Source: an uncultured Clostridia bacterium | Lineage (GTDB): Bacteria; Bacillota; Clostridia; UBA1381 | DNA: 33,073 nt | Assembly (NCBI GenBank): GCA_904395315.1 | Contig: CAJFNT010000136.1 | Coordinates: forward strand, 1-33,073 | Reading direction: 5' to 3' | In this document: positions 8,076 to 18,205 of the stretch, piece by piece | How the letters are laid out: each line of letters begins with the position of its first letter | Position numbering within the stretch: position 1 is the first letter of the stretch | Translations under genes and position numbers: made by a program | The notes under the pieces: generated by a model | What the model was told of the DNA's origin: nothing | Seen by the model: the letters and a program-made list of their open reading frames with translations, nothing else | Databases searched by the model: none

Positions 8076-8762
8076 TCAGCCGAGCTTGTATTCGTCGGCA
8101 AGCTTTTGAAGGCACTTTTTTTCTATCCGGCTTACATAGCTTCGGCTGATGCCGAGATCTTCGGCGATCTCGCGCTGGGTCATTTGCCGCGTCCCGCATA
8201 GACCGTAGCGTCGGAATATTATCTTATATTCGGCGTCTGTAAGAACACGCCGCATTATGCTGTAAAGTTTTTCTGCTTCTATATTGTCTGATACTGTATC
8301 AGCTATATCTTCATCGCTGCCGGTAAGTATATCGGCGAGAGTCATATTGTTGCCTTCGCTGTCGGTGCCTATACCGTCATCGATATATACCTCGCTTTTT
8401 TTTCTGCGTATGGCGCGCAGATACATCAGGACTTCGTTTTCGATGCAACGGGCAATGTATGACGAAAGTTTTTTGTTTTTATCCGCGCTGAAAGTGTTTA
8501 TGCCTTTTATAAGTCCTATCGTTCCTATGGATATGAGATCTTCCGAATTGTTTTCATCTCCGTATTTTTTTGTGATATGAGCCACGAGCCGGAGGTTGTG
8601 CTCTATGAGTACATTCTTTGCGTTTTCATCGCCTTCCGCAAGCAAAGCCAAATATTTTTTTTCTTCCTCGGCAGAAAGAGGCTTGGGGAATGCTGCGCTG
8701 CCGGAAACGTAACCTGCCATCAGGACGACGGTCCTGAGCCATTCGAAAACGGCTTCGATCAT
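8076..8762 (-). CDS. sigK: RNA polymerase sporulation sigma factor, pro-sigma-K
   Basis: This 228-residue sigma-70 family factor controls late mother-cell genes during spore formation. It begins with a hydrophobic pro-sequence (residues 1 to about 20, MIEAVFEWLRTVVLMAGYVS), removed from known sigma-K proteins by the SpoIVFB protease. Then comes AAFPKPLSAEEEKKYLALL and GDENAKNVLIEHNLRLVAHI, the sigma-K hallmark. Region 2 has DLISIGTIGLIKGINTF, and region 4 ends with QREIAEDLGISRSYVSRIEKK. The gene is continuous, with no skin-type element splitting it. I chose the ATG at 8762 because AGGTG lies six bases upstream; a GTG at 8771 overlaps that site. The ribosome binding site lies in the stem of a leader hairpin. 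The organism therefore probably makes spores. Confidence 0.95.
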   Translation of the reverse strand: MIEAVFEWLRTVVLMAGYVSGSAAFPKPLSAEEEKKYLALLAEGDENAKNVLIEHNLRLVAHITKKYGDENNSEDLISIGTIGLIKGINTFSADKNKKLSSYIARCIENEVLMYLRAIRRKKSEVYIDDGIGTDSEGNNMTLADILTGSDEDIADTVSDNIEAEKLYSIMRRVLTDAEYKIIFRRYGLCGTRQMTQREIAEDLGISRSYVSRIEKKCLQKLADEYKLG

Positions 8763-8765
8763 AAA

Positions 8766-8816
8766 AAGCACCTGCCTTTATAATAGTTTTTACACTATTA
8801 TATTCAGCCGGTGCTT
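8766..8816 (-). promoter_or_regulatory. Hairpin that closes over the sigK ribosome binding site
   Basis: In the minus-strand transcript AAGCACC (8816-8810) pairs with GGTGCTT (8772-8766), and inside it ACTATTATA/TATAATAGT (8802-8794 and 8787-8779) pair with a six-base loop. The AGGTG ribosome binding site lies in the 3' arm and is followed by TTTTT and the ATG. It could be a terminator of the upstream comM-like gene, a block on sigK translation, or both. Confidence 0.55.
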
Positions 8817-11220: not shown

Positions 11221-11340
11221 GGCGGGGATTATCTTGATAGAAGACTATCAACATCAATAATATATTTATATATTAGCAACTATACACAAATATGCAAAAG
11301 GATATTTTTCAAATTTAGTAGTCTTTTTTCTTTGAAAGGG

Positions 11341-11369
11341 TTGTATTTGCAAAACGATTGTGGTAAAAT
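11341..11369 (+). promoter_or_regulatory. Possible promoter of the propeller gene
   Basis: TTGTAT (11341-11346), a 17-base spacer and TAAAAT (11364-11369). It lies about 95 bases before the ATG at 11464. Confidence 0.45.
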
Positions 11370-11373
11370 TCTA

Positions 11374-11399
11374 AAAAGCCGAGTAAGAATGCGGCTTTT
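11374..11399 (+). promoter_or_regulatory. Leader hairpin AAAAGCCG/CGGCTTTT
   Basis: AAAAGCCG (11374-11381) and CGGCTTTT (11392-11399) form an eight-base stem with a ten-base loop, followed by ATATATA. It begins right after the predicted transcription start and resembles a short terminator, so it could be an attenuator or the end of the transcript from 11164. Confidence 0.4.
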
Positions 11400-11463
11400 A
11401 TATATAGACCGCCGGCGAGAATGGGTCGGTTGTTTGCATTTTGAAAGAGAGGTATTTTTAACC

Positions 11464-13086
11464 ATGGAAACACATTTGTTGAAGCGCATTGACACCTCGA
11501 TGTGCGGAAAAGGATGCCGTATGTGGCTGGGAGACATAGACGGTGATGGACGTATGGAGATAGTAATGGTCCAGCCGGATGGAGGATTCGATGACCGTTT
11601 TTATCCGCACTCAGTGCAATGCGCTACAGCGTTTGATATTGAAGGAAATATGCTTTGGAGAGTGGGTGAACCCGATCCCGATGTGGTTGGCAGCGGCTCG
11701 GATATACCTGCTCAGATCTATGATATCGATAACGATGGAAATAATGAATTTATATGCTGTATGAAAGACGGTCTTTATATATTTAACGGTAAGACCGGAA
11801 AGCTTAAGTCGAAGCATGCGCTGCCTGACGAGCATGCGCATGACTGTATAGTCATAGCAGATCTTGAGGGGACAGGTTATCCGCAGAATATAATATTGAA
11901 AAACAGATATCATAAGCTTTGGGCTCTTGACAAAGATTTTAAAGTTATGTGGACTTTTGAGGGAAATATAGGTCATTATCCTTGGCCCTATGATCTTGAC
12001 GGCGATGGCAGGGATGAGCTGATCGCGGGATATAATGTGCTTAACGGCAAGGGCGAGGTGCTCTGGACGATAGACATGGAGGATCATGCCGATTGTATAT
12101 GGATAGCGGATCTCGATCAGGATCCTTCCGACGGACCGAATGTTATCATCGGCGGAGCCGATTCAACGGCTTATACATGGGACGGAAAGCTTATATGGAG
12201 ATATACCGAAACGGTGGAATCGCAGAACCTTGCGCCGGGTAATTTCATTCCGGAGAACAAGGGGACAGAAATAGGCGGGCTTGACAGGATAGTAAGAACG
12301 GGTGAGAACGGTAAAGACGGAGTGTTTCTTATAAATTATAAGGCGGAGACTCTGTTCAAGGAGGACAGAAAAGTCCCTGGGTGGTCATCGATAGCCACAA
12401 CTATACATAATTTTGATGGTACCGGAAAGGATCATCTCCTTGTATACAAGAGAAGCGGATTGCCTGCCGGTATATTTGACGGGCGTATGAATGCGGTGTT
12501 TGAGTTCCCGTTTGAGGGACAGGTAATGTGGACAGACCTTATAGGAGATGGGCAGCCGCAGGTGCTGATATATAATGATGAAAAGATCGAGATATATTCT
12601 GCGAAAGATATAGATCTCTCAAAAGCTGAAGTTCCGTATACGAGACCGCAGCCGAAACGTCTTTATAACTGGACACGGTATTGGGGCAGCGAGATGGCGC
12701 CGGAGCAGTATGCGGTAAATTACATAACAGGAGACTTTACAACGAATGAGATACTGCCTTGGGCTGAGAATTACAGTGAAACTGGGGAGGAAATACCGAT
12801 AACAAGAGCTGATTTTATAGTGCTTCTTGTAAACGGACTGAGACTCCGCGCATACGGAAAAAATGTGTTTGATGATGTGCTGGAGCGTGACTATTTCTGC
12901 GCGGCGGCTAAAATAGCGGCAAAACTTGGCATCGTTGAGGGCGGCAAGCTTCGTCCGAATGATATCATAACGGCAGAGGAAGCCTCCGAGATGGTAGGTA
13001 AGGCATCGGGCAGAAATGTTGACTGCGGAATCGGTGAACTGAACAAGAGAAGAGCGGCTGAGATCATGTGTACGTTGTTAAAGTAA
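11464..13086 (+). CDS. Calcium-loop (FG-GAP/VCBS-like) beta-propeller protein with C-terminal SLH-like domain
   Basis: This 540-residue protein contains repeated calcium-loop units: GDIDGDGRMEI (residues 23-33), YDIDNDGNNEF, ADLEGTGYPQN, YDLDGDGRDEL, ADLDQDPSDGP, HNFDGTGKDHL and TDLIGDGQPQV, consistent with a seven- or eight-bladed propeller. Such loops occur in integrin-like repeats and in family 11 rhamnogalacturonan lyases, but I cannot confirm catalytic residues. The last 95 residues (ITRADFIVLLVNGLRL, NVFDDV, AAKLGIVEGG, PNDIITAEEASEMV) look like a degenerate S-layer homology domain. No signal peptide or membrane segment is present at the ATG at 11464 or in the open frame before it, which is odd for an SLH protein. 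GAGAGG lies about 11 bases upstream. A cytoplasmic carbohydrate-binding role is possible; function is unknown. Confidence 0.75.
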   Translation: METHLLKRIDTSMCGKGCRMWLGDIDGDGRMEIVMVQPDGGFDDRFYPHSVQCATAFDIEGNMLWRVGEPDPDVVGSGSDIPAQIYDIDNDGNNEFICCMKDGLYIFNGKTGKLKSKHALPDEHAHDCIVIADLEGTGYPQNIILKNRYHKLWALDKDFKVMWTFEGNIGHYPWPYDLDGDGRDELIAGYNVLNGKGEVLWTIDMEDHADCIWIADLDQDPSDGPNVIIGGADSTAYTWDGKLIWRYTETVESQNLAPGNFIPENKGTEIGGLDRIVRTGENGKDGVFLINYKAETLFKEDRKVPGWSSIATTIHNFDGTGKDHLLVYKRSGLPAGIFDGRMNAVFEFPFEGQVMWTDLIGDGQPQVLIYNDEKIEIYSAKDIDLSKAEVPYTRPQPKRLYNWTRYWGSEMAPEQYAVNYITGDFTTNEILPWAENYSETGEEIPITRADFIVLLVNGLRLRAYGKNVFDDVLERDYFCAAAKIAAKLGIVEGGKLRPNDIITAEEASEMVGKASGRNVDCGIGELNKRRAAEIMCTLLK

Positions 13087-13380: not shown

Positions 13381-15231
13381 TTATGTGCGGATGAGAAGTC
13401 CGTTCAAAAGATCTTCCTTTGCAAGCTCTTTCATTTTATAGTGCAGTTTTTTGCCGGTTGCGTTTACAGGTATGGAAGACACGAATCTGTAATATCTTGG
13501 ACGCTTATAGTTTGAGATCATAGGGCTTTCTCGGCAGAAATCCTCGAGCTCCTGAACGGTGAGCGAATCATCCGCTTTTACAATATATGCGGTCACCATC
13601 TCGCCGCGCGCCTTGTCGGGAGCGGCGGTAACGATACTGTCCGCAACCTTTGGATGTGTGTTGAGGACTTCTTCGACCTGTGTAGGATATATGTTTTCTC
13701 CTCCGGAGATTATCATATCATCCTTTCTGCCCACTATTGTCACGAAGTGGTTTTTATCCCATGTCCCCAGGTCGTTGGTGTAGAGATAACCTTTGTGGAA
13801 CTTGCGGTTTGTTTCGCCTTCGTTGTTATAATAGCAATAAGCTGATTTTGCATGAGATTTTATTATTATCTCTCCGACTTCCTGGTTGTCTTTTGAGGCT
13901 AATTCATCCGGTTCGGCTCTGCGGTCGTCAAATACTTTTACTACGCGCACATCATCGTCGGTGCATGAGCTGCCGGCTGTTCCTGCCATTGCCGGAAGAT
14001 CGGTCGGACGGAGGAAAGTGTTCCAAAAACTTTCTGTGGTGCCGTAACCGTTGAATATTTTCGGTGTCAGCACTTTCTGGTATTTAATGCAGGCTGCTCT
14101 CTCGAGCGGGCTTCCCATCGTGACGATGCCGCGGAGGGAGCTGAGGTCGCGTCCGTCGCGTTCCTGCGCCTCTGTGAGTCTTTCAAGCACGGCGGGGACG
14201 CCGATTATGAAAGTGAGTTTATAATCTTCAACATATTTAAGCGTCAGCGCCGGATCGAATTTCCGCATGATCGTTACAGAACCGCCGGCGTAAAGCGTAG
14301 GTGTGAGACCGCCCGAATGAAGTCCGCCTCGATGGAACCAAGGAGTGGTGTTCATCGATTTATCTTCTGAAGAGAATGGGAAATGTATCATAACATCGTG
14401 AGCTGAAAGCACCTCGTTTATGCTTGTGAGGCATACTCCTTTCGGCATTCCGGTCGTTCCGGAGGTATAGAGTCTTGTGGTCTCGTCGTATATCGAGAGC
14501 TCCCAATCGATCTGCGGATCATCACTCGAACGATATTTTATAAAATCTTTATATGATACCGTTCCCGGAATCGGATCGGTCCCATCGGAAGCGTCGGTCA
14601 TTATTATCACTCTGGGTCTGTGTTTTGCGAGTGTCAATGCCTGTCGTACCGCGTCTTTGTTTATGGATTCATAAATAAAGACGGCAGGGCAGCTGTCATC
14701 TATCGTAGCGGCGATCTCGCCGGCTGACAGTCTGAAGTTGATAGGGCAGCTTACCGCGCCGGTTTTGTGGCATGCGATATATGCGAATGCAAATTCGGGG
14801 CAATTCAGGAGCTGGAACATTACGACGTCGTTCTTTCTCACTCCGGAATCGAGTATCGCGTTTGCAAATTTGTTCGAATCTCTGTTGAGTTCTTCGTAGG
14901 ACCAGCGTGTGTTGGTTTCGGGGCAGAACATTGCCTCTCGGTTGCCGTAGCGGTCAACGTTGCGCATGAACCCGTTCAGCCACGTGTATTCCTTTTCGAA
15001 AGCGTTTCTAAACATATTTATGCGTTTCTGTTTTGAGTCGGATGTGAATTTAGACTTTGCGGCTTCCAGGGCTGTCTCTATTTCGCTGAAAATATCGTTT
15101 ATATCATCAGCTGTATAGTCATAATTTGATTTGTTGGCGCAGTTTTCGAGCAGGCGTATCACATCGAGTATTTTATTTTTTCGCGCTGCTGAAATTCTGT
15201 CAAATCTTTGCTTTTTTGTTTCTTTGCTCAT
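13381..15231 (-). CDS. Acyl-CoA synthetase (AMP-binding, class I adenylate-forming) with N-terminal extension
   Basis: This 616-residue enzyme should activate a carboxylic acid through an acyl-AMP and transfer it to CoA. The core starts near residue 80. It shows LYTSGTTGMPKGVCL for ATP binding, NGYGTTESFWN, YTNDLGTWDKNHFVTIVGRKDD with the ribose-binding Asp and hinge, GGENIYPTQVEEVL, and the catalytic Lys in NATGKKLHYK. The first 60 residues (RFDRISAARKNKILDVIRLLENCANKSNYDY...) are an extra charged helical domain. They resemble small stand-alone clostridial proteins I recall. GGAG stands eight bases before the ATG at 15231. The gene is divergent from a 2-oxoacid oxidoreductase operon with which it shares control DNA, so a branched-chain or aryl acid substrate is plausible but unproven. 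Confidence 0.88.
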   Translation of the reverse strand: MSKETKKQRFDRISAARKNKILDVIRLLENCANKSNYDYTADDINDIFSEIETALEAAKSKFTSDSKQKRINMFRNAFEKEYTWLNGFMRNVDRYGNREAMFCPETNTRWSYEELNRDSNKFANAILDSGVRKNDVVMFQLLNCPEFAFAYIACHKTGAVSCPINFRLSAGEIAATIDDSCPAVFIYESINKDAVRQALTLAKHRPRVIIMTDASDGTDPIPGTVSYKDFIKYRSSDDPQIDWELSIYDETTRLYTSGTTGMPKGVCLTSINEVLSAHDVMIHFPFSSEDKSMNTTPWFHRGGLHSGGLTPTLYAGGSVTIMRKFDPALTLKYVEDYKLTFIIGVPAVLERLTEAQERDGRDLSSLRGIVTMGSPLERAACIKYQKVLTPKIFNGYGTTESFWNTFLRPTDLPAMAGTAGSSCTDDDVRVVKVFDDRRAEPDELASKDNQEVGEIIIKSHAKSAYCYYNNEGETNRKFHKGYLYTNDLGTWDKNHFVTIVGRKDDMIISGGENIYPTQVEEVLNTHPKVADSIVTAAPDKARGEMVTAYIVKADDSLTVQELEDFCRESPMISNYKRPRYYRFVSSIPVNATGKKLHYKMKELAKEDLLNGLLIRT

Positions 15232-15326: not shown

Positions 15327-15355
15327 ATTATAGCATTAAAGATGATCATTGTCAA
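15327..15355 (-). promoter_or_regulatory. Perfect consensus promoter of the acyl-CoA synthetase gene
   Basis: On the minus strand there is TTGACA (15355-15350), a 17-base spacer and TATAAT (15332-15327), both hexamers perfect. The leader is about 90 bases. Such a strong core promoter usually needs a repressor to be regulated, or is constitutive. Confidence 0.85.
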
Positions 15356-15386: not shown

Positions 15387-15463
15387 ATATTGTACAATAT
15401 TTTAAAAATATTGTTATAGTGTGCAATGAAACGCAATATTGCTGCAATATTTAAAAAATATTG
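15387..15463. repeat. Array of CAATATT palindromes in a divergent control region
   Basis: Four palindromes share the half-site CAATAT. They are ATATTGTACAATAT (15387-15400), a 21-bp palindrome with arms ACAATATTTT and AAAATATTGT (15394-15414), GCAATATTGC (15433-15442), and a 19-bp palindrome with arms CAATATTT and AAATATTG around AAA (15445-15463). The two longer ones differ at a single base over 19. They lie between the two divergent promoters, 32 bases from one -35 and about 40 from the other. A regulator binding here would control both transcripts. Confidence 0.7.
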
Positions 15464-15503
15464 TAAAGCGTGAGACGAAAATATAAAATAATTATTAAAT
15501 CTG

Positions 15504-15532
15504 TTGACAGGCAGGATCCTGTATGATATGCT
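15504..15532 (+). promoter_or_regulatory. Promoter of the 2-oxoacid oxidoreductase operon
   Basis: TTGACA (15504-15509), a 17-base spacer and TATGCT (15527-15532). A ten-base palindrome CAGGATCCTG (15512-15521) lies within the spacer. The leader is about 85 bases and can form a hairpin TGATCGC/GCGATCA at 15571-15598. Confidence 0.7.
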
Positions 15533-15626
15533 TGATCCATAAACGATAGTCAAGAGAAAACGGTGATATGTGATCGCAAAGCCGGTGTTCCGCGATCATT
15601 TAAAAAGATATAAAACGGAGGAAATG

Positions 15627-15839
15627 ATGTTTGAATTAAGGATCAATGAAAAAAGATGCAAGGCGTGCGGGCTCTGTCAAAATGCGTGCCCGCGCGGTGT
15701 GATAGAGGTAAATATGGCAAGAGTAGAGTTAAACGGTCTGGGGTGTGCCGAGATGAAGAACGGAGGATGTGTCGGGTGCGGGATATGCGCGTTGGTATGT
15801 CCTGATATAGCGATCGAAATAATAAGAACCGAGGAATAG
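15627..15839 (+). CDS. korD: 2-oxoacid:acceptor oxidoreductase, ferredoxin-like delta subunit
   Basis: This 70-residue protein has two 4Fe-4S motifs, CKACGLCQNACP near residue 10 and CVGCGICALVCP near residue 47, so it should carry two clusters and pass electrons between the catalytic subunits and free ferredoxin. I chose the ATG at 15627 because GGAGG ends five bases upstream; an ATG at 15624 is too close. It is the first gene of a D-A-B-C operon, the order common for 2-oxoglutarate and branched-chain 2-oxoacid oxidoreductases. The next gene starts 17 bases later with its own AGGAGGTG site. Confidence 0.88.
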   Translation: MFELRINEKRCKACGLCQNACPRGVIEVNMARVELNGLGCAEMKNGGCVGCGICALVCPDIAIEIIRTEE

Positions 15840-15856: not shown

Positions 15857-16909
15857 ATGAAAGAACTTATGAAAGGCAATGAGGCTGCTGCGGCTGCGGC
15901 GATCCAAGCCGGAGTTAAGTGTTATTTTGGATATCCGATAACGCCTCAGACAGAGATAGCGGCATATATGGCGAAACATCTTCCTGAAAATGGAGGCGTG
16001 TTCCTGCAGGCCGAAAGCGAGGTGAGCGCCATAAATATGGTCTATGGAGCGGCCGGCGCGGGAGTGAGGGTCATGACGAGCTCTTCAGGTCCCGGGATAA
16101 GCCTTAAACAGGAGGGGATAAGCTATATTGCCGCGGCTGATCTGCCTTGTGTGATAATCAATGTCATGCGCGGCGGACCGGGACTCGGTGGCATACAGGC
16201 TTCACAGGCGGATTATTTTCAGGCTGTCAAAGGCGGCGGACATGGAGATTATAAATTGATAGTTCTCGCCCCGTCGAGTGTTTCCGAGATGGCTGAGTTT
16301 ACTGCAACAGCTTTTGAGCTTTCCGATGAATGGCGTATCCCGGTAATGATCCTTGCGGATGGAGTATTGGGACAGATGATGGAAGCGGTGGATACGGATG
16401 CTTTGTCGCCTGTAAAGAATTTTGATAAACCGTGGGCGGCGGACGGCAGGCGCGGAAGACGTGAAAAAAATGTTATAAACACGCTTTTTCTGGAGCCGGA
16501 AGAGCTTGAACGTCGAGTGCTTGAAAGGCATGAGCGTTATAAAAAAGCGGCTGAGAAACTTCAGAAATGGGAGGAATATATGGCAGAAGACGCCGATATA
16601 ATAGTAACAGCATACGGTATAACTGCAAGGATCGCGCTGTCCGCCGTGAAGCGGGCGAGAGAGAATGGGATCAAAGCCGGTTTTATACGTCCGATATCAT
16701 TGTGGCCGTTTCCGGAGCGCGCGTATAAAGGAAAAAGATCGAGATTTCTTTGCGTGGAAATGAGTACCGGTCAGATGATAGAAGATGTGCGCTTGGCGCT
16801 CAATGGAGAATGCAGTGTGGATTTTTGGGGGCGGACAGGCGGCATTATCCCGAAAGAGACTGAGATATATGAAAAAATACTTGAGATGCTCGGGGAGGGT
16901 CGCAAATGA
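15857..16909 (+). CDS. korA: 2-oxoacid:acceptor oxidoreductase, alpha subunit (KorA/VorB)
   Basis: This 350-residue subunit carries the pyrimidine-binding domain of the pyruvate/2-oxoacid:ferredoxin oxidoreductase family. It shows GNEAAAAAAIQAGVKCYFGYPITPQTEI at the start, QAESEVSAINMVYGAAGAGVRVMTSSSGPG, and IINVMRGGPGLGGIQASQADYFQ. These are typical of KorA and VorB. Together with the beta and gamma subunits it decarboxylates a 2-oxoacid to acyl-CoA, reducing ferredoxin. AGGAGGTG lies seven bases before the ATG at 15857. The stop overlaps the next start as ATGA. Whether the substrate is 2-oxoglutarate or 2-oxoisovalerate is not resolved; the divergent acyl-CoA synthetase favours neither strongly. 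Confidence 0.93.
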   Translation: MKELMKGNEAAAAAAIQAGVKCYFGYPITPQTEIAAYMAKHLPENGGVFLQAESEVSAINMVYGAAGAGVRVMTSSSGPGISLKQEGISYIAAADLPCVIINVMRGGPGLGGIQASQADYFQAVKGGGHGDYKLIVLAPSSVSEMAEFTATAFELSDEWRIPVMILADGVLGQMMEAVDTDALSPVKNFDKPWAADGRRGRREKNVINTLFLEPEELERRVLERHERYKKAAEKLQKWEEYMAEDADIIVTAYGITARIALSAVKRARENGIKAGFIRPISLWPFPERAYKGKRSRFLCVEMSTGQMIEDVRLALNGECSVDFWGRTGGIIPKETEIYEKILEMLGEGRK

Positions 16910-17652
16910 TGATATACGAAAAGCCAAAGTCTATCACTGATAAGCCGTTCCATTACTGTCCGGGATGCGGACATGGGACTGTGCATAGGATAATCGGAGA
17001 GGTATTGGATGAGCTTGGGATCACAGATAATACGATAGGTGTTATGCCGGTGGGGTGCGCGGTTATGGGATATGATTATTTTGAGTGTGATGTGATGCAG
17101 GCAGCGCATGGAAGAGCCCCGGCGGTGGCGACGGGCATAAAGAGGAGTGTCCCTGACAGGATCGTATTTTCGTACCAGGGTGACGGAGATCTGGCGGCTA
17201 TAGGCACGGCTGAAACTATACATGCCGCCGCGCGCGGAGAGGCGATCACTGTCATATTTATAAATAATACCGTATACGGCATGACAGGGGGACAGATGGC
17301 GCCAACAACACTGGAGGGACAGGTAACCCAGACAACACCTCGAGGGAGAGACCCGTACACTCAGGGGTATCCGCTCAAGATGTGTGAGATACTTTCGCAA
17401 GTGGACGGCGCGGCGTATATTGAGCGTTGCGCGATAGATACTCCTGCGAATATCAGATCAGCGAAAAAGGCGGTCAAGAAAGCGTTCATGTATCAGGCAG
17501 AGCATAACGCATACTCATTTATAGAGCTGCTGTGCGCTTGCCCGACAAATTGGGGGATGAGCCCGGTCGATGCGGTAAAACGTGTTGGAAGTGAAATGCG
17601 GGAGTATTATCCTCTTGGTGTTTACAGAGATATATTTAAAGCGCTTCAATAA
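16906..17652 (+). CDS. korB: 2-oxoacid:acceptor oxidoreductase, beta subunit, TPP-binding
   Basis: This 248-residue subunit binds thiamine diphosphate. It has FHYCPGCGHGTVHRII, VMPVGCAVMGYDYF, and the diphosphate-binding GDGDLAAIGTAETIHAAARG with INNTVYGMTGGQMAPTT following. These match KorB/VorA. The ATG at 16906 overlaps the alpha stop by four bases (ATGA), and a GGGGAGGG site lies upstream, so the two subunits are translationally coupled. It joins alpha and gamma in the cytoplasmic complex. Confidence 0.94.
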   Translation: MMIYEKPKSITDKPFHYCPGCGHGTVHRIIGEVLDELGITDNTIGVMPVGCAVMGYDYFECDVMQAAHGRAPAVATGIKRSVPDRIVFSYQGDGDLAAIGTAETIHAAARGEAITVIFINNTVYGMTGGQMAPTTLEGQVTQTTPRGRDPYTQGYPLKMCEILSQVDGAAYIERCAIDTPANIRSAKKAVKKAFMYQAEHNAYSFIELLCACPTNWGMSPVDAVKRVGSEMREYYPLGVYRDIFKALQ

Positions 17653-17671
17653 CGGCGCGGGGAGGTATAAG

Positions 17672-18205
17672 ATGGAGTATAAGGTCATAGTTTCGGGATT
17701 CGGCGGACAGGGAGTGCTGTTCGCGGGTAAGGTCATAGCAAACGCGGCTGCTGCGATGGGGTATGAAGTGTCGTGGCTGCCGTCATACGGTCCTGAGATG
17801 CGCGGCGGGACGGCGAATTGCCGTATCGTAATATCGGATAAGCCGATATGTTCACCGGCTGCGGAAAGAGCGGACGCGCTGATTGCAATGAATATGCCAT
17901 CACTTACAAAATTCAAGGATATGACCGATGGTGTAATATTTACAGATCAGAGGTTTGCAAGATTTTGCGAGAGCGGTTCGCGTGTTATAGGAGTGGATTC
18001 GGGAATATGCGGCGGAGGCGCCGAACATGACGGACTTTTGAATATGGTCATGGTGGGCGCGTTTGCGACAGAAACGGGCGCGATCACATTTAGCGCTGTC
18101 AGAACGGCGATCGAGAAACTTGCTCACGGTGACGCGGCGGCGCGCGATATCGCCGCCGCGGTGTACGGCGCGGGCCTGGTAGCCCGGAAAGAATGTGTAT
18201 CATAA
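17672..18205 (+). CDS. korC: 2-oxoacid:acceptor oxidoreductase, gamma subunit
   Basis: This 177-residue subunit completes the complex. It begins MEYKVIVSGFGGQGVLFAGKVI, then has SWLPSYGPEMRGGTANCRIVIS and ADALIAMNMPSLTKF, all typical of KorC/VorC. The ATG at 17672 is preceded by GGGGAGGT. An ORF can be drawn back to 17582 across the end of the beta gene, but it lacks family signal there. A strong terminator follows, ending the four-gene operon. Confidence 0.93.
   Translation: MEYKVIVSGFGGQGVLFAGKVIANAAAAMGYEVSWLPSYGPEMRGGTANCRIVISDKPICSPAAERADALIAMNMPSLTKFKDMTDGVIFTDQRFARFCESGSRVIGVDSGICGGGAEHDGLLNMVMVGAFATETGAITFSAVRTAIEKLAHGDAAARDIAAAVYGAGLVARKECVS

Follow-up and report, generated by a model that had tools for sequence, protein, structure and literature searches.

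Conserved palindromic operators between divergent acs and vor promoters, and a putative DNA-binding module in the flanking acyl-CoA synthetase

The intergenic DNA that separates an acyl-CoA synthetase gene (acs) from a divergent 2-oxoacid oxidoreductase operon (vor) in the window, the whole 33,073-nucleotide stretch of DNA analysed here, contains two nearly identical 21-bp palindromic operators, O1 and O2. We infer that the flanking synthetase probably binds both of them through its N-terminal module and would thereby control both the acs and the vor promoters. Acs would then be a bifunctional enzyme-regulator of its own promoter and of the divergent vor operon, acting through one set of sites that share a helical face and stand about 50 and 100 bp away from each of the two -35 elements.

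The acs gene encodes an AMP-binding acyl-CoA synthetase of 616 aa on the minus strand (13381-15231), as judged from domain matches. Its AMP-binding domain starts at residue 90, and the N-terminal module, a proposed DNA-binding domain identified from its homologs and predicted by a structure model to be a helical hairpin, covers approximately residues 1-70 (15022-15231, minus strand). On the plus strand, the vor operon encodes a POR/VOR-type 2-oxoacid:ferredoxin oxidoreductase made up of a delta (ferredoxin-type) subunit (15624-15839, the start being placed by eye at 15624 or 15627), an alpha subunit of the VorB family (15857-16909), a beta (TPP) subunit (16906-17652) and a gamma subunit (17582-18205 for the open reading frame as listed, with the true start probably further in). 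The alpha and beta subunits are assigned from domain matches, and the alpha subunit scores above the NCBIfam VorB cut-off. These matches confirm the gene calls made in an earlier sequence-only reading of this DNA, and both promoters are as stated there: TTGACA-N17-TATAAT for acs (15327-15355, minus strand, first base of the -35 element at 15355), with similar promoters in relatives, and TTGACA-N17-TATGCT for vor (15504-15532, plus strand, first base of the -35 element at 15504), seen in the sequence. Elsewhere in the window, a SigK-subfamily gene (8076-8771) indicates that the source organism is probably a spore-former. Beside acs lies a 584-aa open reading frame (11332-13086) with only partial rhamnogalacturonan-lyase and FG-GAP matches, a relative of which was not found in 14 acs neighbourhoods.

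Between the two promoters, 77 bp (15387-15463) hold seven half-sites, with CAATAT starting at 15395, 15434 and 15445 and ATATTG at 15387, 15408, 15436 and 15458; a further copy, at 15353, overlaps the -35 element of acs. In a scan of the window, 77-bp stretches with starts below 15280 or above 15500 held two at most, and none of 2000 dinucleotide shuffles of the intergenic region (26% GC) reached seven, the maximum being four. The array of palindromes described in the sequence-only reading is thus real, and its two longer members (15395-15413 and 15445-15463), which had been called almost identical, agree at 18 of 19 positions. Both extend to 21-bp inverted repeats of the ACAATATTT-N3-AAATATTGT type, with 9-bp half-sites and a 3-bp spacer (9-3-9). 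Sequence and matrix scans place O1, ACAATATTTTAAAAATATTGT, at 15394-15414 (centre 15404) and O2, GCAATATTTAAAAAATATTGT, at 15444-15464 (centre 15454), neither being assigned to a strand. An extra ATATTG half-site (15387-15392) adjoins O1 and makes the 14-bp palindrome noted earlier at 15387-15400, and GCAATATTGC (15433-15442) provides extra overlapping half-sites adjoining O2; these too carry no strand. The centre of O1 lies 49 bp upstream of the acs -35 element and 100 bp upstream of that of vor, and the corresponding distances for O2 are 99 and 50 bp; the two -35 elements are 149 bp apart, a distance that O1 and O2 cut into thirds.

In the draft genome (2.56 Mb), exact CAATATTN5AATATTG occurs only at O1 and O2, and allowing one mismatch adds only an overlapping place at 15434-15452. 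At up to two mismatches, 32 places were found versus 30 for the reversed control, the level expected by chance, and a genome-wide regulon sought by this pattern search was not found. The recurrence at other loci of the same genome that the earlier reading had proposed to look for was therefore not seen beyond chance, nor is the motif scattered through the genome, which that reading had named as counter-evidence: the full motif is confined to the acs-vor locus. It looks like a single-locus operator, and a second copy could be missed because the genome is 89% complete.

Strong divergent promoters with a symmetric, AT-rich 21-bp palindrome are what classical repressors typically act on, and a separate regulator of, for example, the TetR, MarR or GntR type, encoded elsewhere, might bind the operators and control acs and vor. 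We regard this as unlikely. A search for the TetR family found at least three such proteins in the genome, but the contigs that carry the three TetR genes (C95, C7 and C18) hold no motif match with up to two mismatches, and since no other exact copy of the operator exists in the genome there is no sign of an autoregulated regulator gene. In addition, across 15 acs neighbourhoods (the window and 14 further loci, some of them short) no cluster except acs is common to more than five; a LacI-type gene adjoins acs in one genome (G029).

A related longer motif, often found at Fic-like genes, was treated as separate from the acs operator. CACAATATTTN3AAATATTGTG was found in 33 stretches among 84,980 genomes, 20 of them titled Bacilli. 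At 13 of 34 sites, a palindrome resembling AAATGCACAATATTTTN3AAATATTGTGCATTTT lies 40-80 bp upstream of a Fic-like gene (named by eye), and other copies lie after Fic-like genes or before a rubredoxin-like operon (longer-palindrome loci L063-L065, L069-L072, L074, L087, L088, L091, L093 and L095). Its hosts are AT-rich MAGs, mostly Bacilli.

The acs operator is conserved in relatives of the source organism. Full-length acs orthologs are present in 12 of 15 same-genus relatives (that of G013 from residue 4), and G004, G010 and G015 have neither a full-length acs ortholog nor the 23-bp operator pattern. By eye, the DNA upstream of acs is otherwise diverged among relatives and the palindrome still recurs, also beside other neighbours (named by eye): rpmE in G011 and G012, the LacI-type gene in G029, a P-type ATPase in G075, G078 and G081, and a formate-lyase-like gene in G006. 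As the palindrome recurs with differing neighbour genes, the operator follows acs. Its absence from relatives with the same gene pair, which the sequence-only reading had named as counter-evidence, was not observed; the palindromes are present there. Among 70 family genomes, the 23-bp form with one mismatch matches in nine and its control in two; eight of the nine sites precede acs, and the remaining one is near a contig end in G027, where acs is at a different contig end. At up to two mismatches in 61 genomes, the pattern is no more frequent than its reversed control (21 versus 24 places, in 19 genomes each); its location differs from that of the control, with nine of the 21 places upstream of acs. 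Long inserts, some of them repeated, separate the acs start codon from the promoter in G027, G002 and G008 (L016, L017, L025 and L054; by eye).

By sequence comparison, the N-terminal module of Acs is a clean unit. Thirteen acs homologs of the family lack the first 65-72 residues, and each of the five that were checked has an ATG one to four codons before the start of homology (about residue 70), four of these genes also having a GGAGG ribosome site. For the module, no Pfam family scores over the cut-off, among the 25 NCBIfam matches listed for the whole of Acs none reaches into residues 1-72, and a weak match (E 8e-5) connects the module to phrog_35258, a family of unknown function. Across 19 Acs and stand-alone sequences, F10, R17, N30, Y37 and F74 are invariant and N33 and Y39 nearly so, which suggests that the module copy in Acs is probably kept under selection. 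In the structure model of the module (pLDDT 85, pTM 0.57), helices 6-32 and 41-63 form a long hairpin and are followed by a helix at 66-90, and the first helix is basic (8 K/R, 3 D/E). The model has no recognisable DNA-binding fold, a PDB sequence search gave no meaningful E-value (best match, E 0.03, to a designed protein), and Foldseek returned no PDB match and nine weak viral matches (best E 5.5); the full-length Acs model (pLDDT 36) was unusable. Possible fusions of the module to other C-terminal parts occur at L217 (1165-1716, 184 aa) and L146 (1474-1872, 133 aa).

Stand-alone homologs of the module, about 70-110 aa long, are found in genomes from the same class and phylum, on plasmids of Alphaproteobacteria, Actinomycetota, Bacillota and Deinococcota, and on viral contigs. 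Many of them open a run of same-strand genes. Four of them have no Pfam or NCBIfam match over the cut-off, and the module and the scanned stand-alone proteins gave no Pfam, NCBIfam or PADLOC match over the cut-off or with E below 0.004; a search of viral sequences with one stand-alone protein turned up no relative. The unnamed family of 70-90 aa often heads defence-type operons (L138-L144, L156, L164, L165, L207, L218 and the plasmid loci L169-L179) and is, from this sequence context, a candidate defence regulator. When partner proteins of six stand-alone homologs were compared with PADLOC, three (L138, L140 and L141) matched candidate PDC-M33A, that of L156 resembled an HNH/type IV-like nuclease, and those of L139 and L142 had no match; the partner at L144 has RNA polymerase alpha C-terminal-like repeats. 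Among annotated plasmid loci, five of 11 have a DNA methyltransferase within 4 kb, some with Vsr, AlwI-type or Shedu nucleases. The module is the common factor among operons whose partner genes differ. The phage homologs examined were H1, H36 and H37 (H7, H9 and H10 recur as H36-H38), and plasmid matches H14 and H16 were left out of the examined loci.

Furthermore, the module and the operator occur together. A matrix built from the Acs operators, applied to 140 bp upstream, found sites (p<0.05 against shuffles) at 11 of 21 stand-alone genes versus three of 38 control genes from the same loci (Fisher exact 2e-4), and two of those three controls are divergent neighbours that share their intergenic DNA with the stand-alone gene. 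Nine of the stand-alone positives reach p<0.005, and the Fisher combined value for this test is 1e-16. Among the 11, L172 owes its score to a weak site of 4.6 bits and not to its palindrome, and the remaining 10 of 21 have no significant site in this test. In a palindrome-only test, five of the 21 reached the lowest possible p and two more fell below 0.05. Examples come from an Arthrobacter plasmid, ACTATATAT-cag-ATATATAGT, and a Deinococcus plasmid, ACTATATTT-cat-ATATGTAGT, and two out-of-sample genes were also positive (L207, p=0.004; L218, p=0.001). Of the viral-contig homologs, three of 15 have a significant site, and these three share a similar partner gene by eye; the other 12 have none, and several of the viral homologs seem not to head a defence-type operon. 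The set of 21 leaves out L170 and L180 (inside an operon), the near-duplicate plasmids H25, H27 and H32, unannotated L183, the fragments L177 and L168, and the phage loci L181 and L182; the weak matches L145, L147-L155 and L220 were also omitted, several of them being acs genes that lack the module or falling outside the family, and L217, found later and overlapping its preceding gene, was unscored.

The matrix built from the Acs operators was positive at none of 13 module-less acs genes. In the reverse direction, a matrix built from six stand-alone palindromes chosen by symmetry alone detected sites at 24 of 26 module-bearing acs genes and at one of 13 module-less ones (Fisher 3e-7), figures to be read with the knowledge that the 26 are not independent, because they are partly related by descent. 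The two misses are divergent paralogs in G018 and G078, and at L017 the significant site differs from the conserved one. Two genomes, G018 and G025, hold both types of acs, and both module-less copies are without a significant site; the module-bearing copy of G025 has one (p=0.002), and that of G018 has a perfect palindrome whose outer bases differ, GTTATATTT-N3-AAATATAAC, and which does not reach p<0.05 (p=0.16). The 26 were drawn from 28 module-bearing genes, leaving out those of G027 (contig end) and G080 (only 45 bp upstream), and the G071 fragment was not used. A classical regulator encoded elsewhere would leave unexplained both the similar operators before stand-alone genes, two of them on the Arthrobacter and Deinococcus plasmids, and the absence of the operator at module-less acs genes. 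The earlier interpretation thus stands in part: the operator is conserved and one regulator probably serves both promoters, whereas the statement that no regulator gene adjoins the array gives way, the flanking Acs N-terminal module being the best candidate and its stand-alone homologs often having a similar operator.

The positions of the operators relative to the -35 elements are also conserved. Measured from the first base of the -35 element, upstream operator centres are no more than 2 bp away from a multiple of 10 bp in 35 of 36 cases for acs, 15 of 15 for vor and 11 of 11 for stand-alone genes, where about half would be expected by chance. Column-permuted matrices reached the observed phasing in 0 of 300 trials for stand-alone genes, 2 of 300 for acs and 1 of 300 for all. 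The acs centres fall at about -49/-99 in G000, G007 and G003 (in G014 at -99 only), at about -11/-61 in G001, G005, G006, G009 and G013, and otherwise at -60, -70 or -21/-81; stand-alone upstream centres fall at -9, -20, -30 and -50. For vor, six of the seven genus genomes with the gene pair, the window's own included, retain the spacing of about 50 and 100 bp (G000, G007, G003, G009 and G001, plus G014 with the 50-bp site only). G002 differs, at -60/-89, and two paralog loci have -40. That both promoters are targets is best supported by vor, which keeps its spacing even where that of acs differs (G009 and G001); this makes the single regulator proposed in the sequence-only reading probable. 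In G006, the offset to the promoter of the neighbouring formate-lyase-like gene, about 63 by eye, is out of phase.

These phasing lists were compiled by hand. For acs they take in sites scoring 12 bits or more, together with L123 (9.5 bits), and the promoters of L015 and L133 were assigned by eye (-58 and -67). The acs list leaves out L121 and L122 (promoter not assignable), the weaker sites L012 -142, L018 -219 and L024 -110, and the sites downstream of the -35 element at L112 (+36) and L123 (+52); the vor list excludes a weak site of G014 at 7, together with the second site in each of the loci of G018 and G078 (134 and 131). From the stand-alone list were omitted five sites at or past the -35 element (L143, L165, L174, L178 and L218), L207 at +23 with its weak sites at -9 and -31, L185 at +61, and the viral L184 and L191. 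For the permuted-matrix control, 14 acs genes were chosen by hand, and stand-alone genes were limited to the 15 of 23 whose promoter score was at least 9; seven of these 15 have an upstream site of at least 8 bits.

Given that the region is 26% GC, the palindromes could in principle be intrinsic terminator-like hairpins or phased A/T-rich promoter DNA of the UP-element kind. Some relatives do have long perfect stems beside T-runs (L060-L062 and L054), and a terminator is possible in L060-L062 because a same-strand gene ends just upstream. Nevertheless, the sites in the window lie upstream of both promoters and hence outside both transcripts, and unrelated operons share a half-site consensus that goes beyond mere pairing; on these two grounds the hairpin reading was set aside. 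In addition, column-permuted matrices rarely reproduce the phasing, and we consider both variants very improbable.

If the module does bind O1 and O2, the usual effect would be negative autoregulation, and repression is the sign that we somewhat favour. Two observations count for it: 20 of 26 acs promoters depart from TTGACA/TATAAT at no more than one of the 12 bases, and five stand-alone operators lie inside the core promoter (+13, +13 and +18) or downstream of it (+30 and +35). Upstream sites on one helical face relative to the -35 element would also be expected of a class I activator, and the module might instead activate, or act in a C-protein-like manner in which a distal phased site activates and a filled site close to the -35 element represses. 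This alternative overlaps the preferred explanation, from which it differs in sign only, and is possible, if rather doubtful. The dual mode would suit the site at about -61 paired with one at about -11, abutting the -35 element, in G001, G005, G006, G009 and G013, the latter being the weaker in four of the five; in G001, however, the proximal site is the stronger one. Against plain activation, near-perfect promoters such as those of acs rarely need it, and the stand-alone sites inside the core promoter fit repression.

PutA and BirA carry DNA-binding domains. Both are trigger enzymes, enzymes that also regulate transcription, and repress their own operon; the proposal for Acs is alike in that a metabolic enzyme with a DNA-binding part would control genes of its own pathway (PMC6978683). 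In line with such a role, Acs combines an enzyme domain and a separate conserved module in one protein, and the operator at its own promoter is tied to the presence of the module (24/26 versus 1/13). Acs differs from PutA and BirA in its enzyme class and in having an unnamed small helical module as putative DNA binder. FadD1 of Pseudomonas aeruginosa is a fatty-acid CoA ligase reported to serve also as a transcription regulator responding to a fatty acid, with a leucine zipper inside the AMP-binding domain as its DNA-binding motif and AGGACGG as its site (PMC12754631), whereas Acs has an added N-terminal module and a 9-3-9 palindrome at its own promoter. RptR is reported to be a small helical autorepressor of 79 aa and four helices, encoded by the first gene of restriction-modification islands, that binds repeated 6-bp TAGCTA sites at its promoter (PMC12255303). 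Repeats of this type were not found at acs, where the operator is a 21-bp palindrome, and the family profile A1 matched no RptR entry among PDB sequences at E<=10, in a searched set that may lack 9R2Z. Likeness to RptR, PutA and BirA would lean towards repression. C proteins of type II restriction-modification systems, which are HTH proteins, are likewise small regulators of restriction loci, and a two-site logic like theirs is conceivable for Acs. Unlike them and other HTH regulators, the module and the four stand-alone homologs compared match no known DNA-binding family at Pfam and NCBIfam cut-offs. A literature search, which did turn up FadD1 and RptR, found neither the module family nor the acs-vor operator; it covered few subscription papers and is weak evidence of novelty.

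The metabolic reading rests on the VorB-family assignment and on general knowledge of anaerobes. Acs would activate branched-chain acids, which Vor would reductively carboxylate to 2-oxoacids for amino-acid synthesis, and binding of substrate (free carboxylic acid, ATP or acyl-CoA) by the synthetase domain would relieve or tighten repression; both the ligand and the pathway direction are proposals. A literature search on branched-chain acid activation and reductive carboxylation found nothing directly on this reading.

Taken more broadly, it seems reasonably likely that unnamed small helical autoregulators, spread over defence islands, plasmids and viral contigs of several phyla, bind DNA and recognise ACWAYATTT-N3 inverted repeats at whole helical turns from the -35 element, and that one lineage of gut Clostridia fused such a protein to an acyl-CoA synthetase, where it would read the substrate state of the enzyme and set acs-vor expression. 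If true, an unannotated family that heads many defence-type operons would gain a DNA-binding function and a rule for the sites that it recognises. It would also mean that a defence-type regulator has been captured by metabolism as the built-in sensor of a CoA ligase, and would predict how gut anaerobes may choose between branched-chain acid uptake and other routes to branched-chain amino acids.
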